57,071 bases of DNA from contig JAAZOH010000040.1 of the NCBI GenBank assembly GCA_012797845.1, positions 1 through 57,071 of the forward strand, given 5' to 3'. The notes beneath the pieces were generated by a model that did no database searches, was not told where the DNA came from, and saw nothing but the letters and a program-made list of their open reading frames with translations. This DNA is from Candidatus Beckwithbacteria bacterium. GTDB taxonomy: Bacteria > Patescibacteriota > Microgenomatia > UBA1400 > UBA1449. The translations under genes and the position numbers were made by a program. Position 1 is the stretch's first letter; each line of letters starts with the position of its first letter. Shown piece after piece: positions 36,915-54,526 of this stretch.

Positions 36915-36941
36915 TATATTGTATCAATTTAGGACCGACAA
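36913..36941 (-). promoter_or_regulatory. candidate promoter overlapping hairpin copy A
   Basis: On the minus strand TTGTCG (36941-36936) and a perfect TATAAT (36918-36913) are 17 bases apart. The -35 part lies in the last codons of the gene ending at 36929. Transcription would start inside the right arm of the hairpin and run into the GT2 gene at 36748. Confidence 0.35.
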
Positions 36942-38563
36942 ACTGACCATATTTTCTCTGATCTTGAATCAGTAAATGATTTTTCTAAGTTTAAGCCTTG
37001 GCAATCTGTTCCCTGAACCACACTATAGTAAGGCTCTAAACTCCTGATTTCACCATCAACAAATCGATATTGGCCAATTGCCTCAATATTTGCTAAGCCA
37101 ACCGTATCAGCCTTAGTCCATACTGCCGTTTCCTGGACAAGTCGTGGATTGATTTTGCCATAAAACAAAATGTCTAAATAAATTGAGCTATTAAGCCCTT
37201 GAACATAAACTAAGCGTTCATCTTGTTTTTGAGAAATATAGGTAATAGCTGGCTTAATTCCGGCAAAAAGTTCGGGTGCATATTTTTTAGGAAACAGGTA
37301 AATATATTGATATCCAGCGTATATACTTTGGCTAAAATACAAAGCCAAAAATAATCCATAAGGAAGCCATTTTGTCTTGGTTTTTTGGTTTAAAAAATCA
37401 ACAACTTTTATAAAACCAATCGCAATAGTTATGATTAAAACCGGAATTAAATACAAAGACCGCGTAGCATGAGGTGCATCAGTAGTTATAGCTGAAGCCG
37501 CAGGAGACAAAAATAGCCACAGCCAAACAAGTAAAATATTTTTTATATTTGTTTTAGATTTAATAAGGAAAAACAAAAGAGTTAAGAGTCCAATCGGCAA
37601 AAACAGCAAATCAAGAATATAAAAATAGCTCTGTCCAGGAATGACATGCCATGGATGATTGTATTTATTTTGCCATAAAAATCCGAGGCTAAAAGTCATC
37701 ACATAATTTTTAAAAAGCATTCGACCAAAATAAAATGGCTTATTGAGCCAGAGTTTAGCTAGTAGTGGATTCTTTTGAGCTAGAGCAAAACGGGCATGAT
37801 TAAAAGTATCTATGACTCCTGGATCAGAAAAAATAGTAATGCCTTGCTTGGCTTGGGAAACAGATAAAACACTTCTAAAAGCCAATAAGCTGCCTAAGCC
37901 TAATATGATCACACTAATAATTAAAATAATTTTAGGTCTTGCCAGCAGCTTTTTCCAAAATAAAATTATTAATCCCGCCATAAATAGGGGTAGAAAAACA
38001 AAACTGCTACTGTAGGTAAACTGCATAGCAACTAGCAAAACCGAGCTTAAAAGCAAAAACCAGGGTTTTTTAAAGCTTTGTAAAAATCCCCACAGCGCCC
38101 ACAAAAACAAAGCTAAATTAAGATTGGCTTCAAACCCAAGTCTGGAAAAATGGATATGCCAAGGGTTAATTGTCAGTAAAAAAGCTGCCAGCAAAGCTAT
38201 TGCCTCATTTTTCTTACCATCTTTATAGAGGGCTAAATTTTTTGCTAGTAAATAAAGAGCTAAGACTAAACTTACTCCGGCTAGAGCTGACCAAAACCGC
38301 ACTGCAAAAACGTTCAAGCCAAAGACTTTAATTGGTATCACGGAAGCATAAATATAGCCTGGCATTTTATAATCTCCAATTGATTTAAAAGCTAGTGGCC
38401 AACTTTGGCCATGTTCATCTTTGCCAGTTTGCAAGAGTGAATAAGCATTATAGCCAATAGCTGCTTCATCACGATTTAGGGGTGGCGACAATGATTCCAA
38501 GCCCACAAACCGCACTGTCAAAGCAATGACAATGATAATAAGTAAATATATTCTAAAGTTCAT
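36929..38563 (-). CDS. GT39/ArnT-like GT-C glycosyltransferase
   Basis: A 544-residue polytopic protein of the PMT_2 group (GT39/ArnT-like). The outer loop 1 motif is NRDEAAIGYNAYSLL with D32 E33, the DE pair expected to hold the catalytic acid and metal or acceptor. GDYKMPGYIYASVIPIKVFG and ATRSLYLIPVLIITIAIGF are family-like. About ten to eleven membrane helices precede a soluble C-terminal domain outside the membrane. It is a paralogue of those at 38569, 43918 and 46966. It would transfer a sugar from lipid phosphate to a protein or glycolipid. Confidence 0.92.
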   Translation of the reverse strand: MNFRIYLLIIIVIALTVRFVGLESLSPPLNRDEAAIGYNAYSLLQTGKDEHGQSWPLAFKSIGDYKMPGYIYASVIPIKVFGLNVFAVRFWSALAGVSLVLALYLLAKNLALYKDGKKNEAIALLAAFLLTINPWHIHFSRLGFEANLNLALFLWALWGFLQSFKKPWFLLLSSVLLVAMQFTYSSSFVFLPLFMAGLIILFWKKLLARPKIILIISVIILGLGSLLAFRSVLSVSQAKQGITIFSDPGVIDTFNHARFALAQKNPLLAKLWLNKPFYFGRMLFKNYVMTFSLGFLWQNKYNHPWHVIPGQSYFYILDLLFLPIGLLTLLFFLIKSKTNIKNILLVWLWLFLSPAASAITTDAPHATRSLYLIPVLIITIAIGFIKVVDFLNQKTKTKWLPYGLFLALYFSQSIYAGYQYIYLFPKKYAPELFAGIKPAITYISQKQDERLVYVQGLNSSIYLDILFYGKINPRLVQETAVWTKADTVGLANIEAIGQYRFVDGEIRSLEPYYSVVQGTDCQGLNLEKSFTDSRSEKIWSVCRS

Positions 38564-38568
38564 AATTT

Positions 38569-40170
38569 CTAACGGCTAATGGCATATAAAGCCTCAGAGC
38601 CATCAGGAAAAACATAGTTTTGTATTATTTTCCCAGACAGTTTTTTACTACTAAGATACAAGCTATGATCCTCAGGTTGTTTTGTCTCATCAAGCCCAAA
38701 ACTAATCTTGCCAATTTGTTTAACCCAATCATTATTATTTCCGTGTTCTTGAATATCGACAATCAGCTTGGGATTGTAAAAAACTACCGCCAAGGCTGGC
38801 TGCCAATAAGCGCTATCTACAAAAATATGATCATAGTCATTTTTATACTCAGCTACTGCCTGACCAATATAGGTATTACCTAATTGCCAAGCCTGAGCAC
38901 TTCGTGCAGGATAATGTATAAAATAATCTTCAAGATAAAGTAGACTATTTAAAGCAATAGCAAGTAACAATAAAAGAAAAGCCAGATTGCTAAGTCGGTT
39001 TGGCAATTGTGCTAAAAGTTGGCCAAATCCCAAGGCTGCAATCCCCATGAGTGGCAAAAGCATATAAATCGATCGCGAAGCATGGTAAGGCTCATAAGGA
39101 AGAGCGGCAGTAATAGGAGCAACTAACAAGCAAATTATTAAGATAATCGTTGTTTTGCTTTTCCAGTTTTTAAAAAGCCAATATAAACCAAAGAGCAAGG
39201 GAATAGCGGTAATTGCTAGTAATTGCCCTCCCCAACCACTGTGATGACGCAAATTCGGATCGCCTTGTAAAAATAAGAAGTCAATACTAAAGTATGGCAG
39301 ATAATTATTGAGCAGTTCCCGAGCTATAAAAAAGTAGCGATGGTAAAAAAGTCTTGCCGCTAAACTATTGCCACTTTGCTCAATTAAATTAGCTGATTCA
39401 CTCAGAGCTTGATTGCTATTTAAAATACTGGGCGTACTTAAACGATACTGCTGACTAGCTTGATAATAAGGAGATAAGTAAAGCGGTAGTAAACCCAAAA
39501 CAAAGATAAATACAGCCAATAATAAGTAGATTTTTTTCTGCCAAAGCTGCTTCCAATAAACTAAAATAATAATCCCTAAAAATACAGGTACTACATATCT
39601 GGCACTAAAATAGCTATAAACACTAATTAATCCAAACAAAGAAGCTGGAATAAGCCAAAAACTTTTTTTAGAAAATCCCCAAAAAGTAAATAGAACTGCC
39701 CACAGCAAAAAGCAAAATGATAGTCCTGATTCAAAACCAATGCGAGCAAAGTGGAAATGCCAGGGTGTAGCTAAAAATAAAACCAATGACAAGTTTAAAA
39801 CTAAAGTATTGATCTTATTTTTAGGCAAAAGTTGTTTTAGCAGTAAATAAAAAACTGGAACACTACTTAGCCAAACCAAAGCAAAGGGTAAGCGTACGGC
39901 AAAAGGCGTCAAACTAAATAGTCTGACACTTAAGCTCACCAGCCAAATTGCTACCGGAGCTTTATAATCACCGTACGACAAAAAAATAGCCTGTAACCAA
40001 TTATGGCCATGAATATCTAGACCAATCTTAGCCAGACTATAAGCATCAATACCAATCGCTAGCTCATCCCAGTAAAGCGATACGGGATTTTGGCCAAGAT
40101 TGATTATGCGTACAAAAAGCAGGAACCCAACAATCAATCCAAAAAACAAATATGATAAACTTATTTTCAT
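38569..40170 (-). CDS. GT39/ArnT-like GT-C glycosyltransferase
   Basis: A 533-residue paralogue of the 36929 protein. The loop motif is YWDELAIGIDAYSLAKIGLD with D35 E36, followed by LSYGDYKAPVAIWL. About eleven membrane segments and an outer C-terminal domain. The first gene of this minus-strand pair, five bases from its partner, with a perfect TATAAT upstream at 40189-40184. Acceptor and sugar unknown. Confidence 0.92.
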   Translation of the reverse strand: MKISLSYLFFGLIVGFLLFVRIINLGQNPVSLYWDELAIGIDAYSLAKIGLDIHGHNWLQAIFLSYGDYKAPVAIWLVSLSVRLFSLTPFAVRLPFALVWLSSVPVFYLLLKQLLPKNKINTLVLNLSLVLFLATPWHFHFARIGFESGLSFCFLLWAVLFTFWGFSKKSFWLIPASLFGLISVYSYFSARYVVPVFLGIIILVYWKQLWQKKIYLLLAVFIFVLGLLPLYLSPYYQASQQYRLSTPSILNSNQALSESANLIEQSGNSLAARLFYHRYFFIARELLNNYLPYFSIDFLFLQGDPNLRHHSGWGGQLLAITAIPLLFGLYWLFKNWKSKTTIILIICLLVAPITAALPYEPYHASRSIYMLLPLMGIAALGFGQLLAQLPNRLSNLAFLLLLLAIALNSLLYLEDYFIHYPARSAQAWQLGNTYIGQAVAEYKNDYDHIFVDSAYWQPALAVVFYNPKLIVDIQEHGNNNDWVKQIGKISFGLDETKQPEDHSLYLSSKKLSGKIIQNYVFPDGSEALYAISR

Positions 40171-40182
40171 ATAGACAATACT

Positions 40183-40189
40183 TATTATA
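40183..40189. promoter_or_regulatory. overlapping divergent -10 elements
   Basis: The 34-base gap between divergent starts 40170 and 40205 contains TATAAT on the minus strand (40189-40184) and TATTAT on the plus strand (40183-40188), both a dozen or so bases from a start. No clear -35 hexamer fits either at 16-18 bases. Competition between the two is expected if both work. Confidence 0.28.
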
Positions 40190-40204
40190 GTTGATTATCT
40201 CTCA

Positions 40205-42001
40205 ATGAAAAAACGTTTCAATACAATAATATTGATTTCGATTTTACTTTTTGCTTTTTTTATCAGAATTCTTAAACTTTCGATTATTCCCGTAGGTATC
40301 ACCCATGACCAGCTTGATTACATTATTAACGCAAAAGCTATTTTCCTAACAGGTAGCGATCTGACTCAAACCTGGAATTTTTTTAGTTTAACTGGCATTA
40401 AAACCGCCGAGACCGTCATTTCAGAATTATTACCAACTATATTGGCGCTTTTTATAGGGCCATTTAAATTTTCGCTATTTTCAGCTCGCCTGCCTTTTGT
40501 ACTAGCTAATATCTGCTTAATATATGTGGTTTATCTAATTAGTAAAAAATTAATAAACAGAAATACAGCTTTAGTTACTGCTCTGTTTTTAGCAATAAAC
40601 CCCTGGGCTATTCATTTCAGCAGATCTCCTTTTGAAAGTCTGGTGGCACTAACTTTTTATTTAACTGGAGTGTATTTAATTCTAAAATTATCTTCTTGGA
40701 AAATGCTATATGCTTTTCCTTTATTTATTCTAGGATTTTTTTCTTACCATGCTCTTAAAATTATTTTTCTTCCGCTTTTACTAGTAACTTTAGTTTATAA
40801 ATTTTTACAAAAAAAGCAGGATAAAAAACCTTTTATTGCTTTATTCTCTTTAGGAATTTTAGTTATAGTGTTTTTCATTGTAAGCCTGAAATTTCAAGCT
40901 GCAGCTAGTAGAATTGGTGAAGTTTCTTTTCTTTCCCCTGAAATATACCAAAAAGCCCAAGAATCGGTCTATCAGGAAAGAAGTCTGGCCTTGCCTTCGC
41001 AACTAAACACTCTTTTTTCCAACAAAGCTACATATTATTTAAAAGATTCAATTATCAAATACTTAAATGCTTTCTCGCCTTCCCTCTTATTTCTCACAGG
41101 CGAAAATAGCGGCATTGGAGCTTACACAAATTGGCACCATGGTTTATTTTATTATATTGATTTTGTATTCTTAGTGCTTGGCTTACTAACTCTTTATCAT
41201 AAACATAAAAAGTCTGGAATTTTCTTATTTGCCCTCGCGCTAATTTCTCCCCTACCAACAGCAGTTAGCAATAATAATCTGTATACACTCAGATCAGCTT
41301 TGCTTTTTCCTATCTTAACTGTTTTTATTGCTTATGGAATTTTATTTTTCATCCAATCTGCAAAAAATAAATTAAAGCCAGTTTTAATAGTAGGCTTAAC
41401 CTTGATTTATCTTTTATCTTTTATCAATTTTTATCACATTTATTTCATAGCTTACCCTGTGTATGGTAGTGAAGGCTTTTTGCTTTCTAAAAGAATCTTA
41501 TCTAGTTATCTTATTCGATCGAAAACTAAAGCAAAAAATATTTTTATTAGCGATACACCTATCAGACCTCTTTTTGAACAATATTTGTTTTATGACAACG
41601 CATTAAATTCTAAAGATGCAGTTAGAAAAGTTGCCAAATCAATAAATAATAATCAATTTATTCCGTTTGAAAATATGCATTTTTCAAACAATTGCCTAAA
41701 TAAAGACATCATTTACAACAAAGATAATCTTGTTATTCAACGCTCTTTAAAAAACTGTAAACAAAGCGGTCAGCTGGACACAGATGAAAAAATAGTTATA
41801 AATAAAATTCCTTTAAAACCACTAAGTATTTCTAGTTTGGAAGATGCTGGCCAAATTTATAAAATATACAATGATACGCTTTGCTCCAAATATAAACTGA
41901 ATCCATATCCAAGAGTTTACAGCTATAAAGATTTTGAGATTGAAACCATGGATGATGAAACTTTTTGCAAAACTTGGATCTCAGACCTTAATGACTTATA
42001 A
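40205..42001 (+). CDS. divergent GT39-like GT-C glycosyltransferase
   Basis: A 598-residue polytopic protein related to the neighbouring GT39 enzymes but more distant. Where they have DE, it reads THDQLDYIINAKAIF, with D35 and D38 and no glutamate next to D35. NPWAIHFSRSPFESLVALTF and FLGFF-like SYHALK match the family. The C-terminal outer part of about 170 residues has several cysteines (NNCLNKD, KNCKQSG, TLCSKY, FCKTW). It is a lone plus-strand gene, meeting the convergent gene tail to tail with a six-base overlap. Confidence 0.88.
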   Translation: MKKRFNTIILISILLFAFFIRILKLSIIPVGITHDQLDYIINAKAIFLTGSDLTQTWNFFSLTGIKTAETVISELLPTILALFIGPFKFSLFSARLPFVLANICLIYVVYLISKKLINRNTALVTALFLAINPWAIHFSRSPFESLVALTFYLTGVYLILKLSSWKMLYAFPLFILGFFSYHALKIIFLPLLLVTLVYKFLQKKQDKKPFIALFSLGILVIVFFIVSLKFQAAASRIGEVSFLSPEIYQKAQESVYQERSLALPSQLNTLFSNKATYYLKDSIIKYLNAFSPSLLFLTGENSGIGAYTNWHHGLFYYIDFVFLVLGLLTLYHKHKKSGIFLFALALISPLPTAVSNNNLYTLRSALLFPILTVFIAYGILFFIQSAKNKLKPVLIVGLTLIYLLSFINFYHIYFIAYPVYGSEGFLLSKRILSSYLIRSKTKAKNIFISDTPIRPLFEQYLFYDNALNSKDAVRKVAKSINNNQFIPFENMHFSNNCLNKDIIYNKDNLVIQRSLKNCKQSGQLDTDEKIVINKIPLKPLSISSLEDAGQIYKIYNDTLCSKYKLNPYPRVYSYKDFEIETMDDETFCKTWISDLNDL

Positions 42002-43909
42002 TTTTTTAACTGCTTTATAAATTTTATATTTTTTATTAGTAAAAAGCAGTTTTTTCTGAGATAAATCAAAACCCAAACAATACCTTCCTTCTACTCCTTC
42101 TTCTAATAAAAGATAGTCTGTTGAAAAATTTTCTTTCAAAGAACAATCATTTCTTTTAATATATTCTAAAAACTGCCATCTTTTTTGAATATCAACTTTC
42201 AAAACTTCTAACTGCCATAGGTCTAACAGATAACTGTTTTTGCGACCAATGGAACCAACGATATTATGCTCCTTTTCACTACTTCTCGTAAAATTATACA
42301 AATTGAAAACATTCCCTTGCGGCAAAGTGCTTAAAACATCAAGAGCTTCCATAAGCTGCTTATCATACGTACGATTATCTTTTTTAAGGTTGTATTTGCC
42401 TAATTCATGCCATGTCACCGGCAAACTTAAAAGCAAAATCAAAGCTATGAAAAAAACTAGCAGGTTCTTCTTTTTAATTTGAGCTAAAAAACCACCTAGT
42501 AAAATAGTGCTGGCAGTCAATAAGTATGGCCCAAATTGAATAATATTGTAAGCTGAGCCGCTCTGATTTCCAATAAATAAAACCAGTAATGAGATGAGAG
42601 AAGCAATAAGTAAGAGAATCTCTATTTTTTTGATCTTTTTTTTAAAAATTACCAATAATCCCACAATTCTTACCCCTAAACTACCTATTACAAAGATTGC
42701 ACCAAAAATAATTTGTAAAATTAAAAATTTTAAATACTTACCCTGAAGCTGATAGATTACATAATAAGAAGCAATTTTTGTCTGTTTAAAATATGGATTG
42801 AGCATTTTTTCATAAAAAGCTTGAATAATCCAACCAGGATTATAATCAATAAAACTTTTTCCAAAGGTGAACATATTAAAAGCAATTATCAAAACAACTA
42901 TTCCAGCAATTAAACCAATCAAGACAAATTTGAAACATTTTTTAAATGACCGACTTCTAAAAGATCTAATAAAAACATAGAGAGTAAAAAATCCTAATGT
43001 CATAATTCCCACAATAAACGCGTAAATTTTTAGACCAGCTAACAATCCTAAAATCAAACCAGCTAAGACTATTGAACCTTTATTTTTGAAGCTTTGCTTT
43101 AGAAATATTAAAAAATAAAAGAAAAAAACTATTGAAAGCACTGCTGGTTGGTTAAACAAAAAGATTAAAGGCTGATCCAAAAAAAAGACGCTTTGCCACC
43201 ATTGACCAAGCCTAAGTAAAACCAAAATGTATTGTAAATTGTTAGCAAAATATGCCAAAAAAACTGTAGTAATTTGGATTAAATAGTTTTTAGTAATCAA
43301 GCTAATAGTTCTAAAAACACTGATTCCAAACAAAATCGAAATAATAACTGGATAAATAACTTCTATATACAAAGCTACACTTCCACCGAACAATTGATAT
43401 TGAGCACTAATTAGTAAATCATAAAAATAATGATAATTTTTTAGACTCTGACCAGCAAAACCTGGTATTTGTGGCGGAAAATGATTTGAAAGCTCGTATA
43501 TCAAAGCTGCATGCCAACTTTGATCGTGACTAAAAGCTAGGCTAAGCTTTACCTGTTCCATTCCTAAAAATACTGATTTAACAACTGGAAAAGACTGAGC
43601 TGCTACACCCAGTGCAATAAGTAAAAAAACCCCAAATAAAAACTTAAAACCAGAAATTTTAAAATTTATTTTAAAAAAAAGAGCAAATAACAGCCAAAAT
43701 AGTATATAAATTCCAGCTAGAATTTGCGTAGACAAAAACCACCGCCCCAAAAAAATATAAAGAATCAATATCGCAAGGCCTGTCACGAGTTTTAGGTCGA
43801 ACCACTTTGATATTTTAAATTTTTGACAAATAATGTGTCCTGGAAAAAATATAAAAATTAAATAAAACAGCAGTGTTGCACCAATAGACCAAATAAGATT
43901 TAACCACAT
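41996..43909 (-). CDS. polytopic membrane protein, GT-C-like
   Basis: A 637-residue protein with about 13 membrane segments and an outer C-terminal domain of roughly 130 residues. The first large outer loop contains LSLAFSHDQSWHAALIYELS and GQSLKNYHYFYDLL, a pattern resembling the substrate loop of GT-C enzymes, where D in HDQSWH could be the catalytic acid. I do not recognise a named family. It is nine bases from the GT39 gene downstream in the same direction. Function is inferred from context. Confidence 0.82.
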   Translation of the reverse strand: MWLNLIWSIGATLLFYLIFIFFPGHIICQKFKISKWFDLKLVTGLAILILYIFLGRWFLSTQILAGIYILFWLLFALFFKINFKISGFKFLFGVFLLIALGVAAQSFPVVKSVFLGMEQVKLSLAFSHDQSWHAALIYELSNHFPPQIPGFAGQSLKNYHYFYDLLISAQYQLFGGSVALYIEVIYPVIISILFGISVFRTISLITKNYLIQITTVFLAYFANNLQYILVLLRLGQWWQSVFFLDQPLIFLFNQPAVLSIVFFFYFLIFLKQSFKNKGSIVLAGLILGLLAGLKIYAFIVGIMTLGFFTLYVFIRSFRSRSFKKCFKFVLIGLIAGIVVLIIAFNMFTFGKSFIDYNPGWIIQAFYEKMLNPYFKQTKIASYYVIYQLQGKYLKFLILQIIFGAIFVIGSLGVRIVGLLVIFKKKIKKIEILLLIASLISLLVLFIGNQSGSAYNIIQFGPYLLTASTILLGGFLAQIKKKNLLVFFIALILLLSLPVTWHELGKYNLKKDNRTYDKQLMEALDVLSTLPQGNVFNLYNFTRSSEKEHNIVGSIGRKNSYLLDLWQLEVLKVDIQKRWQFLEYIKRNDCSLKENFSTDYLLLEEGVEGRYCLGFDLSQKKLLFTNKKYKIYKAVKKL

Positions 43910-43917
43910 AAATATAC

Positions 43918-45525
43918 CTAATAAATATAAAAAACCGGTTTACCTTCAAGGTTAACAATACTTTTTAATATGTTTTGTTTTCCCATTTTGGTGCTACTAA
44001 TAACAAGCTGTTTTCCTTGTTCTTGAGGCTTGATACCAAAATATATATTCTCAAACTGTAAAAATTCCCCCTGATCTTTGGGAGTTTTATTTTCCCAAGC
44101 TTGAACTAGTTTGGGATCAGTTTTGGTATAAAACCAGTAATACATAGCTGGTCGACCTTGATCTCTAGTTACAATAATTTGATCATATTCATTTTGATGC
44201 TCTTTAATAAATTGAACCATTTCTTTATATCCATACTGCCAATCCTGGCTAGACTTAATTGGATAGACAGTAGTGTAATAGTACCAAAATTGACCTAGCT
44301 CAAAAGCAAATCCACCAACAAGTAAAATTAGTGAGCCAATTAGTATATATTTTGGCATTGCTTTTCTTATAGCTGTAACAAAATTAATCAGTCCATAAGC
44401 ACATAAGGTAGCCAGTGGGATAACCATAAGCAGAGCCCGTAAAGCATGGGGCGTAGCTTTAGTAGCTCCAGCAGCTACTGGCGCTACTACTAACCACCAC
44501 AGCATCAACATCATGTTTTTTTCTTTTTTGGCAAAAAGGTAATAGATCCCCAAAAACAGCAGCGGTAACTGTAACCAATATAATTGACCTACCAAACCTA
44601 CACTATGGCGAATATTACTATCACCACTAATAAATAAAAATTGAGGATTAAAATGACTAAAATAATGATCTAAATAAAGTTTGGCATAGTACCAAAAACG
44701 GTGATGTAAAAGTTTGGCCCAAACTGTATCACCATGTCTGGCAATAGCTTGGTTTGATTCTAAGATTGGTTCAAGCTGCGTAAAAACACTAGTTTCTGCC
44801 AGACGGTGATTGAGTTGCGGATTGGAAAAATTAAGAATAATTGGCAATACAAATAAAAAAGCTAAAACAATACTGATTACTGTCCATATTTTTTGCTGCC
44901 ACAATTTTTTAACAAAAAGGATTCCTAATCCCAAAACCAGTAAAGGCGTGACCACTCTATTGCTATGATAGGTATACATAGAAAGAATTAAAGGTAAAAC
45001 TGAAACTGGCAGAAGGTAAATCTTTTTTGACTTAAGAGCAAACAGTAAAAAATAGATTCCTAAACATGTCCAGAACAAAGCTAGGTTTGTTTCAAAAGCT
45101 ACCCGAGAAACTAAAATGTGCCATGGCATAATAACTAGTATCAAGGCCGAGGCTAAAGCTATGTATTCTTTTTGTTTATGTTTTTGTAATAAAAGCTTAA
45201 CTAGTAGATATATCAGTAAAACTGTGCCAACTCCTGCTAGAGCCGAAGGAAGTCTTACTGCCCAAATATTTAAACCAAACAGAGCAATACTAGGAACAGT
45301 GACATAAAAATAGCCACTGGGTTTCCAATCACCAAAGGATTCAAAAGCTAAAATTGGTAAAGCTTGACCATGATGATCACGGCCTGTTTGCAAGATTGAA
45401 TAGGCATCATAACCCAAAGCTACTTCTTCCCAATATGGGCTGGGTGGCAAAGTATCTAAATGATACAATCGTAAAAAGGCTGAAAGAATAATAATAAAAA
45501 TCAGTACTAAAATATTAAGCTTCAT
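43918..45525 (-). CDS. GT39/ArnT-like GT-C glycosyltransferase with EE in place of DE
   Basis: A 535-residue paralogue of the 36929 protein from ATG 45525 (ATG 45546 is also possible). The loop motif reads YWEEVALGYDAYSIL, so the usual D of DE is E33. ESFGDWKPSGYFYVTV and NIWAVRLPSALAGVGT match its relatives. About eleven membrane helices precede a C-terminal outer domain with a GDSNIRHS loop also seen in the 38569 protein. Activity may be kept, since glutamate is acidic, but the change is noteworthy. The start overlaps the GT87-like gene. Confidence 0.9.
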   Translation of the reverse strand: MKLNILVLIFIIILSAFLRLYHLDTLPPSPYWEEVALGYDAYSILQTGRDHHGQALPILAFESFGDWKPSGYFYVTVPSIALFGLNIWAVRLPSALAGVGTVLLIYLLVKLLLQKHKQKEYIALASALILVIMPWHILVSRVAFETNLALFWTCLGIYFLLFALKSKKIYLLPVSVLPLILSMYTYHSNRVVTPLLVLGLGILFVKKLWQQKIWTVISIVLAFLFVLPIILNFSNPQLNHRLAETSVFTQLEPILESNQAIARHGDTVWAKLLHHRFWYYAKLYLDHYFSHFNPQFLFISGDSNIRHSVGLVGQLYWLQLPLLFLGIYYLFAKKEKNMMLMLWWLVVAPVAAGATKATPHALRALLMVIPLATLCAYGLINFVTAIRKAMPKYILIGSLILLVGGFAFELGQFWYYYTTVYPIKSSQDWQYGYKEMVQFIKEHQNEYDQIIVTRDQGRPAMYYWFYTKTDPKLVQAWENKTPKDQGEFLQFENIYFGIKPQEQGKQLVISSTKMGKQNILKSIVNLEGKPVFYIY

Positions 45526-46807
45526 AAGTTTTTTCAGGTAGCTCAAAACTTAGCCACAACAAATAAAACATAAGACCTATGCGAATATAATCTTTACACA
45601 GATCATACCCTGCCCCTAAAAATGGCAGGATTATTTTAGGTATTTGAGGAATTGAAGAACTTAAAAGCAGCATAAATAGTAAACCAGCTATCAAGACGGT
45701 TTTCTTTTGTTTTAAACTCTTAAATCCTGTCACAGCTAATAAAGGTAATAACCAAATAGAAAAAGGTTGGGAAAATACCTTGCCAGTAATAAAGAGAGTT
45801 AGGATATAGACTAAGCTAATTTTTAAAAGCAGTTGGAATATTTGAACATTAGAGATTGTAATTGGTTTTTTCAAAAGCTCCCAAAATCCCTCTAAAATAT
45901 TTTTATGTTTCTGGATTTTAATTAGTTTCCATAAACCATAACTCAAGACCCCTAAAATACTTACGGGAAATATAATCCCAAAGACTCGATTCATGGTATT
46001 TGAAACCGGACCAGCCATTTGAAAATCAGGAGGTTCTTCGACCCGATGTTCCGAATGGGTAAATAGATTAATTCCTTCAATCAAATTTGAACCAATCGAA
46101 CTGTATTTTAACGGTCTACCCATATGAAAAACCACACTTACAGATAAGGAAGATCGATACATAAATAAAGGTCCTCCCCAGATTAAAATACCTCCAATCA
46201 GCAAAGCCAGTAGTTCTTTTTTAAAAGATAATTTTTTACTAAGAAAAAATAAAGGCAGTAAAGGCAAGCTCATAAATTTAATAGCTCCGGAAAAGAAAAA
46301 AATTGTCCAAAAAGAAATTCTGTTTCTGATTTTAGCTTGATCATACAGCAAAATAGAAATCAAACTTATGGCTAAAAGTCCAGCAAAAAGCAAGTCGATT
46401 CCTTCGTATAAAAAATCTTTAACAATCAGGCCGCCTACAATATAAAACAGCAAGGAAATACGCTGAGAAAATTCTGAAAGCTTTAGTTTTTTAAAAGCCT
46501 TAACAATAAAAACAAAAAGTAGACAATCAAAAGCAAAGATCCCTAAACGGTAATTAAGGTAATACTTACCAACACCTAATTGATCTAGAAGTAGCGGAAA
46601 AATTAGGAAAGGAATAGTAGCAGGTGGGTATTCGAAGTAGTGTTCAAGATACGGCGGCATCCCATACCACCACATATTAGCATAACGCTCATAATCATGA
46701 GTCACATCAGAATAATGAGCCGGTGGAAAAAGCAATATTATAATTCGACTCAATAAAAATAGAATCGTTAAGATGGTAGCTTTTGATAATTTTTTAGGTA
46801 GTTTCAT
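45515..46807 (-). CDS. GT87/DUF2029-like GT-C glycosyltransferase
   Basis: A 430-residue polytopic protein of the DUF2029/GT87 type. The outer loop holds HYSDVTHDYERYANMWWYGM and EYPPATIPFLIFPLL, the YPP motif seen in polyprenyl-phosphate-mannose-dependent mannosyltransferases, with aspartates as candidate catalytic acids. About ten membrane segments. The start codon lies in the left arm of hairpin copy B (46806-46825), so translation initiation could be structure-dependent. The end overlaps the GT39 gene downstream. Confidence 0.88.
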   Translation of the reverse strand: MKLPKKLSKATILTILFLLSRIIILLFPPAHYSDVTHDYERYANMWWYGMPPYLEHYFEYPPATIPFLIFPLLLDQLGVGKYYLNYRLGIFAFDCLLFVFIVKAFKKLKLSEFSQRISLLFYIVGGLIVKDFLYEGIDLLFAGLLAISLISILLYDQAKIRNRISFWTIFFFSGAIKFMSLPLLPLFFLSKKLSFKKELLALLIGGILIWGGPLFMYRSSLSVSVVFHMGRPLKYSSIGSNLIEGINLFTHSEHRVEEPPDFQMAGPVSNTMNRVFGIIFPVSILGVLSYGLWKLIKIQKHKNILEGFWELLKKPITISNVQIFQLLLKISLVYILTLFITGKVFSQPFSIWLLPLLAVTGFKSLKQKKTVLIAGLLFMLLLSSSIPQIPKIILPFLGAGYDLCKDYIRIGLMFYLLWLSFELPEKTYEA

Positions 46808-46969
46808 AAACTAATTGCATAATAAGAAATATTTCAATAACGCAGAAATTTTGCACTTTTTCGAGGCATTAGTTGTCGATAGTACTAAACGTACTTGAGA
46901 CAAATAATAACGAAGAAAAAATGTAAAAGATCAAGTTAGTAAAGATTAGTTATTATGCATTTAGTTTAT
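46806..46969. repeat. 164-base hairpin element, copy B
   Basis: A second hairpin of identical length to that at 36751. Outer arms ATAAACTAATTGCATAATAA (46806-46825) and the complement of 46950-46969 agree at 19 of 20 positions. TTAGTTGTC (46869-46877) pairs with GACAAATAA (46899-46907) with one mismatch, leaving a 21-base loop ending GTACTTGA. The left arm includes the start codon of the gene at 46807 and the right arm the stop codon of the gene at 46966. Outer and inner arms differ from copy A yet remain self-complementary. Confidence 0.8.
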
Positions 46970-48546
46970 AACGTTTTTACAATTCTAAAAGCAACTTGAT
47001 TATCAGGAAACCTAATTTCATCAATTAAAGTAACTTTATCAGCTGGTAACTGCCTTGGAATTTCTTCTGGTGGCCCGATAAGTAATATATTTTTTTGAAA
47101 TTGATCACCATTCCAATCAACCGGCCGATATTGATATTTACTCATTTCCCCCCAAAGCACATAAAGCGGAACCTTATTTTGGTAAACCTGTATAAAAATA
47201 TGCGGCTGCCCATAATATGGCGAAATGACAATTTTATCAACTTTATCTTCGTAAGTCTTGGCAACTTGCGCTACTTGCTCATACCCATACTGCCAATCGG
47301 CAGCTGCATAAACTGGGAATTTGTAAAAATAATCATCAATAAATTTGATAAAACTAAAACTGAGCCAAGCCATAAAGATAATGAGTAAAATTTTCTGCTT
47401 GGACTTATTTAATAGTTTGGGGCCAAGAGAAGTGTAGGCAGTTACTAATCCATAGCTGGCAATCAAAATGAGAGCTGGCATAGCATTTAAAGTCCGAATT
47501 GGGTGAGGCACCTCTTCTCCTCGACTAATTATTCCCGGAACTAAACCAAACAAAAACCAAATTAATAACAACTGACTGATTTTTTTGTTTCGATTTTGAT
47601 ACAAAGCATAAAGACCAAATAAAAATCCTAAATATACTACTGGATAAATCAAACCCGTATATTTCAACCCATTGCGATAGTTAGCCTTAACGCCAAGTAA
47701 GTAAAACTCTGGATTGATTTGCTTCCAAGCATTGACAGCTAAATCTTGTAATAACCCTGGGTCAAGTAATCTGAGTTGTTGCTGCTGATTAAAGAAAATG
47801 CTGGTTCCAAATCGATCGGCTCCTTTGCCATAAAGATTTTCTTTAGCTAGTGGCAAAAAAGCAGCCAAACAAATAAGGATAATAACAAACAATCCTACTG
47901 TTTTTTGTTTTACTAAAACCCATATCTTATTTTTATAAATAATAAGTAAAACCAAAATCATTAGTGGCACAAATAATTTGGCACTATGATAGGTATACAT
48001 TGAAGCTACAAAAGCCAGTCCAGATAAAAGCAGTAGATACCATTTTTCAAAACTTTTTAAAAACAGCCAAAAACCAAAGAGAATAAAGGCCAAAGCTACA
48101 TTCGCTTCATAGGCCCCACGGCTAAACATAATTTCCCAAGGAGAAATCGCAAAACATAAGGTTGCTAAAATAATAAATATTTCATTAAAAGTTTTATTTT
48201 TTTTAAAAGAAGAGGCTGTTATTTGAGCAAGTAAGTAAAAAATGATTACACTAATGATTCCAGCTAGAGCTGAAGGTAAACGAACCGCCCATGGTTTTAA
48301 ACCCAAAAGACCAACAAAAGGGGCAGTAGCATAAATTAGCAATGGAGCTTTAAAATCCCCAAAAGACCGGAATGAAAGCGGTAATCTAGTCCCATATTCA
48401 TCAATACGGGCATTCCAGATTGATAAACTATTCCAGGCAATAGCGGCCTCATCCCAATTGAGTGAAGCTGGAATATGACCCAACTGGTAAAGTCGTAAGC
48501 CAGCAGCTAGTAAAAGTAAAATTATGAATAGTAAGTATTTTTTCAT
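46966..48546 (-). CDS. GT39/ArnT-like GT-C glycosyltransferase
   Basis: A 526-residue paralogue of the 36929 protein. The loop motif is NWDEAAIAWNSLSIWNARID with D32 E33, then FRSFGDFKAPLLIYATAPF. About eleven membrane helices, and an outer C-terminal domain with YYGQPHIFIQVYQNK and YPVYAAADWQYGYEQV that resembles the other paralogues. It is separated by eight bases from the chimeric gene upstream, and its stop codon lies in hairpin copy B. Confidence 0.92.
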   Translation of the reverse strand: MKKYLLFIILLLLAAGLRLYQLGHIPASLNWDEAAIAWNSLSIWNARIDEYGTRLPLSFRSFGDFKAPLLIYATAPFVGLLGLKPWAVRLPSALAGIISVIIFYLLAQITASSFKKNKTFNEIFIILATLCFAISPWEIMFSRGAYEANVALAFILFGFWLFLKSFEKWYLLLLSGLAFVASMYTYHSAKLFVPLMILVLLIIYKNKIWVLVKQKTVGLFVIILICLAAFLPLAKENLYGKGADRFGTSIFFNQQQQLRLLDPGLLQDLAVNAWKQINPEFYLLGVKANYRNGLKYTGLIYPVVYLGFLFGLYALYQNRNKKISQLLLIWFLFGLVPGIISRGEEVPHPIRTLNAMPALILIASYGLVTAYTSLGPKLLNKSKQKILLIIFMAWLSFSFIKFIDDYFYKFPVYAAADWQYGYEQVAQVAKTYEDKVDKIVISPYYGQPHIFIQVYQNKVPLYVLWGEMSKYQYRPVDWNGDQFQKNILLIGPPEEIPRQLPADKVTLIDEIRFPDNQVAFRIVKTL

Positions 48547-48554
48547 AACAACTA

Positions 48555-50585
48555 CTATGGTACATCAGCTAAGCGAACAGATAAAATCGCATCTTCACCA
48601 TCTACAGGCAATTTTGAAAGCAATATTTTTTCTTGATTATTAGGGTTTCTAATGATAATTTCACCTCCATCTCGCCCTCTAATTTGTTTATAATCCTCTT
48701 CCAAATTGCCTGATTGATAAAATTTTTCGACATCAAAAAAACGCTCATGATACCATCTACCTAAACGGTCCTCAATGACAACAGCTGGGTCTTGTTTTAA
48801 TTCCTGGAACAATGTTTCATCATAATTTTTTTCCAAAAAACCAATTTCGATTTTGCTGACTCCCTGATTTTGCACAAACAGATAGTTTTCAAGTTCTGTA
48901 TATGCAAAATGATTAGTCAGATTATTCATCTGCCTTATCAATAGGTCTTTATTTTGAATTTTGTCAGGATTAATCCAGATATATGGTAATAAAGCTGGTT
49001 TTGTCAAAGCAATATAATCAGCTGTATATAAAATCCCTTGTTTAGCAGGCTTTGGCACAAAAACTACTTGATCAAAATCATGAAGATCAGGGAGTACATT
49101 ATCCCAATTCCATAGTATTTTCCAGACATTATTTTCCCTGGTTACTTGTAGTGTATATGCATGATCCAAATTTCCTAATTCTGATTTAAAGTTATTTTTT
49201 CCTAGAGCATAGGCCGTATTTTGCCATGGCATCACTTTGCTTTGAGCAGTAGTAATTTTTTTTGATAGTAAATGAAGGTTGTTTTCTATTACTTTATTTT
49301 TGATTAAAAACTCCTGTCTGGTAATTTTATTTTTACTATCTTGATTCAGGTGTTGATATAAATCTTGAAAATTACCGTTTTGCCAATCCTGATTTGCAAA
49401 ATATAGCATTTCATTGGGATCTGGCCGCATAAAGAAAATCAGTTGTAGTAGCGAAATACCTACAAGCAAGCCTAGAATTTTTATATTTTGCTCAAAGTAA
49501 TGTAGTAAAAGCAAAATTCCTAATGGTAGAAAAAGCAAGAAGTAATGGGGATAAAATGATAAGGTAATAAATGATACCAAAAGTAGGCCACAAATAATTA
49601 AAATGTAGTTTTCTGTTTCATTGTCTTTTATTTTCTTCAGAACCAGTAAAACTCCTTGCCAAATAACCATAACAGCTGTAACAGGCCAAACTAAAGACCA
49701 ATTTCTTACCGACTGCCAACCTTGACTTCCCCAAATATTTAAATATCGACCAACCATGACAGTACTTATAGTAATAAATACATCAGCTTTTTTTTGAGAT
49801 TTAGCATAGAAATCTACAGTCCATTTCTCATTTTTAAGCCAGTTAATCAAATTGGGGTTTTGTAAAAAATATGGTAAGAAAGTGGCTATATATGAAATTA
49901 AGGCAATGCCCAACAAAGGTATTATGTAAGCAATTTTCTTTCTTTTGAAAAGTAAAAATCCATCAGCTAATACCAAAATTGGGGTGTAAATTGGAAATTT
50001 ACTAGCAGCAAAACCACCCAAACTTATTCCTGTTACTAATAACCAAATATATGTATAAGAAGATTTTTCTTTACTTAATTTAAGAATAGCCAATATATGT
50101 AAAAGCAGCCAAAAAAGTTGAGGTAAATCCAGCATGGTACGACCCAACTGCATTGCATAAAGTGGTGAAGTCAGGAGTAGTAAAACTCCAATTAGCTGTA
50201 TTTTTTTAGAATTTGTAAATTCTTTGGTTAAAACATAAAAAATGATAGTAGTTGTTAAAAATAACAATGCTGCTGCCCAATAAGGATTAGTCAAATAAGT
50301 AGCAGCTAGTCCATAAAAATATTTACCCAATGGCGGTACTTCGGGATTGATAGAAAAAAGGTCAGCACCTTGAATATATCGATAGCCAGCCAATTGATAC
50401 AGCTCATTATCAGACATTACCCGATTACTTTGAGGAATCATCCATTGGCTATGACCATATAAATCTTCAAGATAACTAAGGTCAAAAGGAGTCAAAAATA
50501 CCCATCGAAGGCTATAGAAAATTACAATCAGTAAGCCAGTAATACAAAATGGTAAAAACCTAAGTAATAAATCCTGCTTTTTCAT
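48555..50585 (-). CDS. GT-C glycosyltransferase fused to PBP-like MecA_N and dimerisation regions
   Basis: A 676-residue protein in two parts. Residues 1-385 form a polytopic GT-C unit with SDNELYQLAGYRYIQGAD and the INPEVPPLGKYFYG loop of GT39 enzymes. Residues about 391-500 read like the NTF2-like N-terminal domain of class B penicillin-binding proteins: DWQNGNFQDLYQHLNQDSK, TRQEFLIKNKV, RENNVWKILWNWDNVLPDL. Residues about 501-676 follow the PBP linker and dimerisation order and end with EEDYKQIRGRDGGEIIIRN then KLPVDGEDAIL, exactly where the transpeptidase domain should begin. No SxxK/SxN/KTG motifs exist. Confidence 0.85.
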   Translation of the reverse strand: MKKQDLLLRFLPFCITGLLIVIFYSLRWVFLTPFDLSYLEDLYGHSQWMIPQSNRVMSDNELYQLAGYRYIQGADLFSINPEVPPLGKYFYGLAATYLTNPYWAAALLFLTTTIIFYVLTKEFTNSKKIQLIGVLLLLTSPLYAMQLGRTMLDLPQLFWLLLHILAILKLSKEKSSYTYIWLLVTGISLGGFAASKFPIYTPILVLADGFLLFKRKKIAYIIPLLGIALISYIATFLPYFLQNPNLINWLKNEKWTVDFYAKSQKKADVFITISTVMVGRYLNIWGSQGWQSVRNWSLVWPVTAVMVIWQGVLLVLKKIKDNETENYILIICGLLLVSFITLSFYPHYFLLFLPLGILLLLHYFEQNIKILGLLVGISLLQLIFFMRPDPNEMLYFANQDWQNGNFQDLYQHLNQDSKNKITRQEFLIKNKVIENNLHLLSKKITTAQSKVMPWQNTAYALGKNNFKSELGNLDHAYTLQVTRENNVWKILWNWDNVLPDLHDFDQVVFVPKPAKQGILYTADYIALTKPALLPYIWINPDKIQNKDLLIRQMNNLTNHFAYTELENYLFVQNQGVSKIEIGFLEKNYDETLFQELKQDPAVVIEDRLGRWYHERFFDVEKFYQSGNLEEDYKQIRGRDGGEIIIRNPNNQEKILLSKLPVDGEDAILSVRLADVP

Positions 50586-50588
50586 ATT

Positions 50589-51428
50589 TTAAGGGAAACT
50601 ACACCATCGTTTTAAGGCTAGTAAAAATGCCAAATCAAACTTTCCACCTGATCTTAAACCCGTAAATAGTAAATGGTAAGGTAACCATAAAAAGTGGTTT
50701 ATAAGCTGCATTCCCTTGGCATTTTTCCACATAAATAAAATTTGGTTGCGAAATGACATGATCTCAATTTTTCTCAAACCATAAACAGTTTTATTAGTAG
50801 TTTCGTGCTGGTGGTAAACAATCGCATCTTTTTCAAATAAAATTTGCCAGCCTTTTTGTTTAGCTCGCCAAGCTAAATCAATATCCTCTCCATAAGCCGG
50901 AGCAAACAAAGGATCAAGCCCGCCAAGCTCTAAATATTTTTGTTTTGAAACTGCCATACTCCCAGCCACACTCCACCATGTGTCCAAACTTTCTTGATCT
51001 TTTGGTGTCCAATGGACAAAAAACCCTCGCTTAAAAGCTCCTGCAGTTCGGCCTGAAAAAACTTGCTTACCATCTTTTTTTTCAATTTCACGGCAACCTA
51101 CACTAAAAACTTCTGGATTTTTAAAATGTTTTAGAAGTGGCTGTAAAAATCCTTTTTGAGGAATCACATCAGAATTTAATAAGATAACTATTTCACCCTT
51201 AGCTGCAGCAACGCCACTATTACAAGCTTTAGCAAATTGTTGATTAGTTTCATGAATCACTAGTTTGATTTTGGGAAAATTTTTTTTAAGGAAACTAACT
51301 GAACCATCTGTCGAGCCGTCATCAACCACGATAATTTCACAATTAGGGCAAGCATCTATTACTTTTGGCAAATTTTTAGCCAGTAGCTTTTGGCCATTGT
51401 AGTTTGGAATAACAACCGAAACATCCAT
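50589..51428 (-). CDS. family 2 glycosyltransferase
   Basis: A 279-residue GT2 enzyme. VVIPNYNGQKLLAKNLPKV opens the fold, VVDDGSTDGSVSFL and NQQFAKACNSGVAAAKGEI follow, and the metal site is NSDV. PAYGEDIDLAWRAKQKGW carries the ED dipeptide of the catalytic base. A hydrophobic C-terminal stretch near residues 250-270 may contact the membrane. The pattern is closest to rhamnosyltransferase-type GT2 proteins. It starts two bases after the GT4 gene and ends three bases before the chimeric gene. Confidence 0.92.
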   Translation of the reverse strand: MDVSVVIPNYNGQKLLAKNLPKVIDACPNCEIIVVDDGSTDGSVSFLKKNFPKIKLVIHETNQQFAKACNSGVAAAKGEIVILLNSDVIPQKGFLQPLLKHFKNPEVFSVGCREIEKKDGKQVFSGRTAGAFKRGFFVHWTPKDQESLDTWWSVAGSMAVSKQKYLELGGLDPLFAPAYGEDIDLAWRAKQKGWQILFEKDAIVYHQHETTNKTVYGLRKIEIMSFRNQILFMWKNAKGMQLINHFLWLPYHLLFTGLRSGGKFDLAFLLALKRWCSFP

Positions 51429-51430
51429 AT

Positions 51431-52507
51431 TTAATATAGTCTTTTTTTAAACTCTTCAAAAAACGCCTCTTTACTGAATTTTAAAGCATCCTTGCGGGCT
51501 TTTTTAATAAGGCTTATTTTCTTAGCTGGATTGGAAATGAGATTTTGAGTCAGTTGTAATAGCTGTTTTTTTTCATGCCACAAATAGCCATTTTTTTTAT
51601 CAGTTATAATTTCTGGAATTCCCCCACTATTATGAGCTATCACAATACAACCTGCTGCCATAGCTTCCACAATTGATATACCAAAATGTTCGACTTTACT
51701 TGGCTCAGCAGTTTGCTCAACTTCAAAACCTGTGGCATGCCAATAAATATCAGCCTTTTGATAAAGAGCAATCAAATCTTCATAGCTAGCATTGACGGCA
51801 AACTCGATTGGGTAGTTTAGAGCTTGCTCTCGCAGTTTAAGCAGCTCTTCTTCATTGTGCTGCATCCCGCCAGCTAAAACTAGTTTCCAACCGTTTAAAC
51901 CCTGATCAACCATTTGCTTAAAAACTTCAATCAGCACATCCTGGCGCTTGGCATTCATGATTTGGTCAAAACGGCCTACTGACAGAATAATATTTTCTTT
52001 TTCTGTCTTGGCTTCAAAATCATGAACTGCTACTGGCGGATAAATGACTTCACTCTCAACTCCAAAACTTTGATCAATATATGTTTTGGTAAATTGTGAA
52101 TTACAAATTATTCTGTGAACATGGGTTAATTTCTTTTGGCTCCAATCATCTTTACCATTCAACTGAAACGGTACTTGAAAATGCAGCCAGTTTTGTTTGG
52201 CTCTTAAATACGGAATACTTCCATCAGACAACCAAAAAATCAGATCATAAGTAGGTAAACTTAACCATTTTTGTAGTTTCTGGGCATAAGAAGGACTTTG
52301 ACTAAAACGGGCATACATACTGGGGTTAAGCTTGAGACCATCCAACCAAAGCTGGAAGCGGTCTTGGGCTTTTTTGACATCATCAAAATTTGGCCAAAAA
52401 AGCTCTACCTTCCAGTTGTGCTGCAGGCAAAATTCAGCAAAGGTCAGTATGTAGCGTTCACCTCCACCAAGCGTATCTAAATATGGTGAGTAAATCCCGA
52501 TTTTCAT
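51431..52507 (-). CDS. ALG11-like family 4 glycosyltransferase
   Basis: A 358-residue GT4 enzyme. It begins MKIGIYSPYLDTLGGGERYI, a clear acceptor-domain GGxE loop, and the donor domain shows ILSVGRFDQIMNAKRQDVLI and KVEHFGISIVEAMAAGCIV, with E in both EX7E positions. The overall order, including NSQFTKTYIDQSFGVESEVIYPP, resembles ALG11-type mannosyltransferases. It is the first gene of a minus-strand series and faces the plus-strand gene at 52586 across 78 bases. Mannose is a plausible donor sugar, not proven. Confidence 0.92.
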   Translation of the reverse strand: MKIGIYSPYLDTLGGGERYILTFAEFCLQHNWKVELFWPNFDDVKKAQDRFQLWLDGLKLNPSMYARFSQSPSYAQKLQKWLSLPTYDLIFWLSDGSIPYLRAKQNWLHFQVPFQLNGKDDWSQKKLTHVHRIICNSQFTKTYIDQSFGVESEVIYPPVAVHDFEAKTEKENIILSVGRFDQIMNAKRQDVLIEVFKQMVDQGLNGWKLVLAGGMQHNEEELLKLREQALNYPIEFAVNASYEDLIALYQKADIYWHATGFEVEQTAEPSKVEHFGISIVEAMAAGCIVIAHNSGGIPEIITDKKNGYLWHEKKQLLQLTQNLISNPAKKISLIKKARKDALKFSKEAFFEEFKKRLY

Positions 52508-52585: not shown

Positions 52586-54526
52586 ATGCTAAAAAGCTAT
52601 TTGCTTCCGATAGTTCTTTTTATTGGACTTATAAATATTTTCTTCTTTCACCAGCTTGGTTCAATGGCTACTAGTTTGGTTCTTCTAGTCTTATTTTTTC
52701 TAGTTCTTAGTTTGTCTTATATACGTCATAAGTTCAAATATAATCTCAAGTTCATTGCTACAACTGCGGCAGTTTTTCTTTTTTGTCTTTATCCTATTAT
52801 CGCATCTGGGAATAGACTAATCCAGGTCGTTGATACACTATTTGCCTTAATTTTATTACTCTTTTTGTACTATCTTAGTAATAGTCCTCAAACCTTCAGT
52901 ATGACTTTGTCAGAAACTATTTTGGCACCTTTTATAAGCAGTTTTAATTACACTGTTAGTGCTCTTACTTACTATGTATCACTTTTTCTAAAAATCCCCA
53001 AAAGAGGGAAAGCTGATGGTTTTTGGGGACAAATTGTTGCTGGCTTAGTTCTTAGCTTGCCGATTTTACTCATTGTTATTTCTCTTTTAAGTAGTGCCGA
53101 TCCTTTTTATGGCCAGTTTATGAAGCAGCTTTTTAATCTCGATCTTTCTTCTCACTTTATCCAACGCTTGCTATTTAGTGCAATATTATTGCTAATTCTG
53201 TTACCACTAACGGCTTATCGAAATATAAGTCAATATCCACAATTAATGAAGCTAGGTAAAAATATTAAAGACGGCTTGACGGTTTTAGTTCCAGTGGTTT
53301 TACTGATTGTAGCTCTAGGTTTATTTCTAACCGTGCAATGGTCGTATATTTTTGCTTCTGTTCCTAAGGAAACTGAGCTGATTACATTTGGTATCAAAAC
53401 CTATTCAGAATATGTTCGTCGAGGTTTTGTAGAGCTTTTGCTTGTAGCCACTATCATTTATTTTGTCAGTTGGTTAGGTTTAATTGTCAGCCGCAATATC
53501 CCTAAGGCTAAATACTTAAAACTGGCTCAAACAATCCTCTTAGGAGAAATTCTTCTTTTTATCATCTCTATTTATCGCCGAGTCTGGCTTTATCAAAGCT
53601 TACATGGTTGGAGTCTGGGCCGATTATATGGCTGTATGTTTCTTTTTTGGCTAACTGGTATGGTGATTACACTCGGTTTTCGCTACTTAACTAAACTCAG
53701 ACTGTTTCCAGCTGAGGCTTTACTAACAATCCTAGTATTGGCTTCTTTTAGCTTATTTCCAGCCGAAGATTTTATTGCCAACAACCATCCTCCAACAGTT
53801 AATAATCGCATTGATTACACTTACTTATCCCGATTTTCGCCTGATGGTGTTAACGGTTGGCTAATGTCATATAAGCAGGTTGATCAAACTCTTAGCAATA
53901 CTTCGTTGCTTAATAAAGCTTTTTATGAAGCAGACGAACGTCTCGCAATTATCAATGCCGGTATGGTGCTTGATAATCTGACCAGCCACTATTTATTTTT
54001 AGCGCAAAAATACGGCAGTACTCAAGAAAAAAAGCAAATCGTCCTTTCTATTTTGGCATTTCAGAAACAACTTTATCTTAATAAGATCCAACAGCTTGAA
54101 CAAGACGAATCGACCAATTCAGCTATTTTGGAAAAGTTACACATGCAAAGTAAACAATTGGCGACTTTTGAAACTCAAGTTACACAAAAAAATTCGGTAG
54201 AAATTAGGGATTATATAGCCTCAATGACCAATTGTATTTCCGCTTATTACGAACCTGTTGATGGGTATATCACTAGTCCGTTTAGTATTAGTCAATCAGT
54301 ATCACCTCAAAAACCCAATGCTTTAGACAGTATTTTCACTTGGAATTTAGCTGAATATAAAGCATACCAAATCCTAAAAGCTCAACTGCCTTTTAAAACC
54401 TTACTGGCTTCACAAAGCAATTATCTTTATGTCTATAACAAAATTTTAAAACAAGCTGAAAAAGATAGAGAAGTAGCTCAAGATTTGTCTTTTGACACTA
54501 TATTTTTAACTTCGGTCTATTATTGA
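52586..54526 (+). CDS. DUF4173/DUF4153-like membrane protein
   Basis: A 646-residue protein with about 12 hydrophobic segments in the first 390 residues and a soluble C-terminal domain of about 240 residues. SLLSSADPFYGQFM and IYRRVWLYQSLHGWSLGRLY match DUF4173 proteins, whose function is unknown. The C-terminal domain is helical and charged (QKQLYLNKIQQLEQDES) and may be on the outside. It is a lone plus-strand gene inside minus-strand glycosyltransferases and meets the next gene tail to tail with a seven-base overlap. Confidence 0.85.
   Translation: MLKSYLLPIVLFIGLINIFFFHQLGSMATSLVLLVLFFLVLSLSYIRHKFKYNLKFIATTAAVFLFCLYPIIASGNRLIQVVDTLFALILLLFLYYLSNSPQTFSMTLSETILAPFISSFNYTVSALTYYVSLFLKIPKRGKADGFWGQIVAGLVLSLPILLIVISLLSSADPFYGQFMKQLFNLDLSSHFIQRLLFSAILLLILLPLTAYRNISQYPQLMKLGKNIKDGLTVLVPVVLLIVALGLFLTVQWSYIFASVPKETELITFGIKTYSEYVRRGFVELLLVATIIYFVSWLGLIVSRNIPKAKYLKLAQTILLGEILLFIISIYRRVWLYQSLHGWSLGRLYGCMFLFWLTGMVITLGFRYLTKLRLFPAEALLTILVLASFSLFPAEDFIANNHPPTVNNRIDYTYLSRFSPDGVNGWLMSYKQVDQTLSNTSLLNKAFYEADERLAIINAGMVLDNLTSHYLFLAQKYGSTQEKKQIVLSILAFQKQLYLNKIQQLEQDESTNSAILEKLHMQSKQLATFETQVTQKNSVEIRDYIASMTNCISAYYEPVDGYITSPFSISQSVSPQKPNALDSIFTWNLAEYKAYQILKAQLPFKTLLASQSNYLYVYNKILKQAEKDREVAQDLSFDTIFLTSVYY

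Follow-up and report, generated by a model that had tools for sequence, protein, structure and literature searches.

The pedestal of MecA-type class B penicillin-binding proteins (bPBPs) has been studied mostly on account of PBP2a and β-lactam resistance. In these proteins, which include Bacillus subtilis PBP3, Staphylococcus aureus PBP2a and Enterococcus faecium PBP5, a single transmembrane (TM) anchor is followed by an NTF2-like MecA_N domain, the RGxI...LA region, dimerization lobes, a hinge and the transpeptidase. PMT and PMT_2 GT-C glycosyltransferases (GT39 and relatives) are recognized by the Pfam domains PF02366 and PF13231, with an aspartate and a PPLGK motif in the first loop. Among larger GT-C enzymes, AftD, and possibly YfhO, have extracellular carbohydrate-binding domains that were proposed to bind the acceptor polymer (PMC8035078). 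In SEDS–bPBP complexes (RodA–PBP2, FtsW–FtsI), bPBP pedestals on the outer face activate the SEDS polymerases via an extracellular loop (PMC8078798, PMC10257715).

The protein described here is a GT-C glycosyltransferase followed by a complete MecA-type bPBP pedestal (residues 388 to 676), with no transpeptidase. It shares the order of elements with MecA-type PBPs over about 300 residues and, by Foldseek, their fold, at about 15 to 20% identity; however, an 11-TM GT-C enzyme replaces the single TM anchor, and the protein ends without the transpeptidase. With PMT and PMT_2 enzymes it has in common PF02366/PF13231, the first-loop Asp and PPLGK, and the pedestal is what sets it apart from them. 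As in AftD and YfhO, a GT-C membrane part carries an extracytoplasmic accessory domain, although here this domain is a PBP pedestal and not a carbohydrate-binding module. The pairing of a membrane glycosyltransferase with an outer-face bPBP pedestal recalls the SEDS–bPBP complexes, whereas the fusion is covalent, uses another glycosyltransferase family and lacks a transpeptidase. We found no published description of this architecture in the literature covered, which was largely open-access.

The fusion gene lies at 48555 to 50585 on the reverse strand of the window (the whole 57,071-nucleotide stretch analyzed), starts with ATG and encodes 676 residues (ORF call and family alignments A1 and A2). 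The GT-C membrane domain (residues 1 to 387; 49425 to 50585, reverse strand) was assigned to PMT/PMT_2, with 11 predicted TM helices, by Pfam, topology analysis and AlphaFold2. Its first extracytoplasmic loop (residues 26 to 101; 50283 to 50510, reverse strand), the putative catalytic loop, harbors the invariant residues R55 and D59 and the PPLGK motif (residues 84 to 88). Attached directly after the last GT-C membrane helix, in the place of a PBP's own single helix, the pedestal consists of the MecA_N/NTF2-like domain identified by Pfam (residues 399 to 503; 49077 to 49391, reverse strand) and a remaining part delimited by the family profile and Foldseek (residues 504 to 676; 48558 to 49076, reverse strand), which comprises the RGxI–LA region, dimerization-type lobes and the hinge. 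The stretch 48555 to 49415 (reverse strand), corresponding to residues 391 to 676 and the stop codon, had been proposed from the sequence alone to be a PBP pedestal fused to a GT-C enzyme, a proposal borne out by the profiles, structure prediction and recurrence described below; the motifs quoted in that sequence-only reading, VWKILWNW, GRDGGEIII and VDGEDAIL, are all present there.

Pfam searches detected MecA_N (PF05223) at residues 399 to 503 of the window protein (E = 4e-7; 30.7 bits, cut-off 22) and in 16 of 21 family members. PF03717 (PBP_dimer) was significant in 13 of the 21 (best E = 1e-19) and not in the single window protein. With the C-terminal part alone as phmmer query, B. subtilis PBP3 ranked first (E = 6e-5). 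The family profile A1, built from 21 same-length relatives from related genomes with no PBP included, matched B. subtilis PBP3 (7bn9, residues 24 to 327) with E = 1e-31, PBP2a (3 to 304) with E = 8e-28 and enterococcal PBP5/PBP4 with E of about 1e-22. These matches cover the whole pedestal and stop at the hinge, in agreement with the earlier suggestion of a MecA-type order that runs from NTF2-like domain to hinge and ends before the transpeptidase; weaker matches to MrdA and FtsI were confined to the dimerization part. The NCBIfam MecA, PBP4(5) and MrdA models likewise match most family members. Two facts exclude a chance resemblance to PBPs: the E value of 1e-31 came from a PBP-free profile, and the fusion recurs in many genomes. 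Most relatives show the bPBP motif RGxI...LA clearly (KRGSIIASDKKPLAED); in the window protein it is worn. Most members terminate close to the DGxD(V) strand, no more than a few residues away; in PBPs this strand leads on to the transpeptidase. No match to the transpeptidase domain PF00905 was found by Pfam in the window protein or the 21 members, and the window protein has no KTG motif. Thus, the claim that a serine active site is missing stands for the transpeptidase, but not for the motif taken literally, as one SxxK (SKNK, residue 417) occurs inside the NTF2-like domain. The lack of PF00905 and KTG, together with the end of the protein at the hinge, indicates that the fusion is not a PBP. 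In a Gottesmanbacteria/Levybacteria-type subgroup the pedestals contain a conserved vicinal cysteine pair, ECC (L043, L044, L045, L047, L048, L050, L051, L053 to L055, L057 and L072), which the window protein does not have.

An AlphaFold2 model computed with 24 sequences had a pLDDT of 89.9 and a pTM of 0.86 for the whole protein and a pLDDT of 92.5 for the pedestal alone. In Foldseek searches against the PDB, the best 50 matches listed were all MecA-type PBPs, both for the whole-protein model (E = 1.7e-13) and for the pedestal model (E about 2e-20), so the window protein matches PBPs by fold even though PF03717 is not significant for it. The query-normalized TM-scores of the pedestal are modest (0.43 to 0.58) and the rmsds large, a pattern that would follow from a different hinging of NTF2 domain and lobes. 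The loop charge balance agrees with 11 TM helices and a pedestal on the outer face, strongly indicating that the pedestal lies outside the cell membrane.

The N-terminal half of the window protein matches PMT (PF02366; 28.5 bits, cut-off 22.7) and PMT_2 (PF13231; 26.7 bits, cut-off 26.1), the matches spanning residues 84 to 232. No SEDS match (PF01098) was obtained by Pfam for the window protein or the 21 members, which gave PMT matches instead, and a profile of the GT part found no sequence match among PDB chains. Beyond the Pfam match, the PMT type is marked by the 11 TM helices and an acidic residue in the first outer loop, the invariant D59, which by analogy only would be the catalytic residue. 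D59 and PPLGK are common to nearly all members, GT-only paralogues included. These GT-only sister enzymes stop after the last TM helix, which rules out that the pedestal is a beta domain generic to GT39 C termini. The first outer loop is the best conserved part of the protein, with a mean pairwise identity of 49% compared to 23 to 28% for the pedestal parts. This strongly indicates that the active loop is intact, and its conservation suggests that the glycosyltransferase is probably active. The relatives' pedestals are only 13 to 27% identical to that of the window protein, and their conserved residues are mostly structural (Y410, G471, W488, W492); the pedestal retains its fold while its sequence drifts.

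Conservation of the active loop against a drifting pedestal is what an active transferase equipped with a binding or scaffolding domain would show. Precedents are the outer domains of AftD and possibly YfhO, the ability of NTF2-like domains to bind peptidoglycan (PMC8038945) and the regulation of SEDS proteins by bPBPs; from these, acceptor or wall binding emerges as the most likely function and SEDS-like regulation as the alternative. By this analogy, and with about an even chance in our estimate, the fusion is an extracytoplasmic transferase of polyprenyl-phosphate-linked sugars, with the recruited PBP pedestal binding the acceptor or the wall. The GT-C part would take sugar from a polyprenyl-phosphate carrier outside the cytoplasm, and the pedestal, as an acceptor- or wall-binding module, would direct the transfer to a wall-linked glycan or to the wall as it is being made. 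The mostly structural conservation of the pedestal and its faster divergence relative to the catalytic loop are also what would be seen if its relation to the wall had been lost after the fusion, leaving a domain that dimerizes the enzyme or holds its acceptor, a lipid-linked one or a protein, in position over the active site. Several members do reside in glycan clusters and not in wall operons. However, the parts from NTF2 to hinge have been kept together across many divergent families, which is beyond the needs of a spacer, and we regard such a generic positioning role as unlikely.

Of the 329 Microgenomatia genomes sampled, about 23 contain the pedestal by profile search, contig-split copies counted; the check proposed with the sequence-only reading, a search for the same fusion in other Patescibacteria, was positive. 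The fusion is absent from about 93% of the sampled genomes of the class. The remaining profile matches covered only about positions 106 to 304, in frames mostly of 550 to 690 aa, and those checked were ordinary bPBPs with transpeptidases. The single window protein as query found no relatives in the genome contigs, whereas the alignment-based scan did. A GTDB-wide scan, not exhaustive since it used two patterns only, recovered full-length relatives from Roizman-, Gottesman-, Levy-, Curtiss-, Davies-, Shapiro-, Collier- and Woesebacteria and a few more from records named just to phylum or "bacterium". An assembly artefact is ruled out, because the fusion was found in many genomes independently and on several contigs that are complete. 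MecA_N matches in 351 genomes of the class were all on the fusion, bar one S20-like false match, and in 362 genomes of the phylum the full pedestal was again found on the fusion only. The fusion seems confined to Microgenomatia, and the roughly 700 genomes sampled from class and phylum showed no MecA-type PBP that might have donated the pedestal. Two candidate MecA-type PBPs were rejected: G391 reads as an S20-like ORF and G526 has no Pfam match. Separately, a PBP-like match at G573:C1:143409-143912 (reverse strand) falls within an open frame as long as 24602 residues, which probably reflects masked sequence if it is not a truly giant frame.

A midpoint-rooted tree built on the GT part groups 26 fusion proteins with five trimmed relatives and one GT-only protein in a single clade (support 100/99), apart from 16 GT-only relatives. 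One fusion event with trimming afterwards in some lineages is the simplest account. The trimmed relatives (L028, L029, L030, L035 and L036; about 430 to 480 aa) retain the GT, followed by a remnant of the NTF2 part or unrelated sequence, with no detached pedestal gene nearby, and L060 has no pedestal. Separate pedestal genes near GT-only members were likewise not found, except where a contig ended or a frameshift split the gene (L031/L059, L032/L061). The trimmed forms and L060 would fit an evolutionary leftover, in which the GT gene joined a truncated PBP gene by chance and the tolerated addition is decaying. We consider this very improbable, as divergent lineages of one clade contain intact, complete pedestals of about 230 to 320 aa, with open frames and high model confidence. 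The window's own genome also encodes a GT-only paralogue of 381 to 385 aa (G000:C25). In L068 (8258-11086) and L078 (3803-6652), a related GT-C domain is C-terminal in proteins of about 945 aa with another long N-terminal part, possibly tandem GT-C fusions.

The window lies in a large glycosyltransferase region. Upstream of the fusion gene, on the same strand, Pfam identified a family 2 glycosyltransferase (50589 to 51428) and a family 4 glycosyltransferase (51431 to 52507). In L044, L045 and L058, too, a member of the latter's family adjoins the fusion, and a YfhO-type protein is encoded close by. These glycosyltransferase neighbors and YfhO-type proteins are among the supports for an acceptor- or wall-binding pedestal, against which count the pedestal identity of 13 to 27%, the rarity of the fusion in the class and the partial loss of the pedestal with the GT kept. 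In Gottesmanbacteria the fusion gene stands amid unrelated housekeeping genes; hence it is not tied to a single operon, and gene context fails to point to the wall in every lineage.

By sequence, the window's genome encodes peptidoglycan synthesis: two bPBPs with other pedestals, further PF00905 proteins, two SEDS proteins away from the fusion and two LCP proteins, while its single MecA_N match is the fusion. This wall-building machinery also speaks for an acceptor- or wall-binding pedestal. The presence of SEDS proteins and bPBPs raises the possibility of a covalent SEDS–bPBP analogue, in which the pedestal would allosterically regulate the GT-C enzyme, dock division or elongation proteins and couple sugar transfer to wall growth. 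Activation of SEDS polymerases by bPBP pedestals, by way of an extracellular loop, is on record (PMC8078798, PMC10257715), the order of membrane helix then pedestal is that of bPBPs with the hinge kept, and the AlphaFold2 model gives GT and pedestal a defined mutual placement (pTM 0.86). Nevertheless, the GT differs from SEDS in family and reaction and there are sister GT-C enzymes that lack the pedestal, and we find the analogy doubtful. It is similarly improbable that the lineage built a single-chain, transpeptidase-free synthase in which the pedestal, as an allosteric and docking module, couples glycosylation outside the cytoplasm to division or to the growth of peptidoglycan. With acceptor or wall binding as the preferred reading, the data suggest that a recycled wall-building part ties surface sugar transfer to the cell wall. 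The MecA-type pedestal has here been recruited alone onto another class of membrane enzyme and thereby becomes testable as a stand-alone module, for wall glycan, wall-building partners or glycosyltransferase regulation. It also offers a starting point for asking how the Microgenomatia, with their nearly unexplored surface chemistry, may connect surface sugars and wall.

Two further features of the window adjoin this locus. At 36929 to 48546, several PMT-like membrane proteins of 526 to 598 aa are encoded in close spacing beside the fusion gene. At 52586 to 54526 on the forward strand, divergent from the glycosyltransferase cluster, lies a gene for a DUF4153 membrane protein (E = 2e-38) with an additional C-terminal soluble part.
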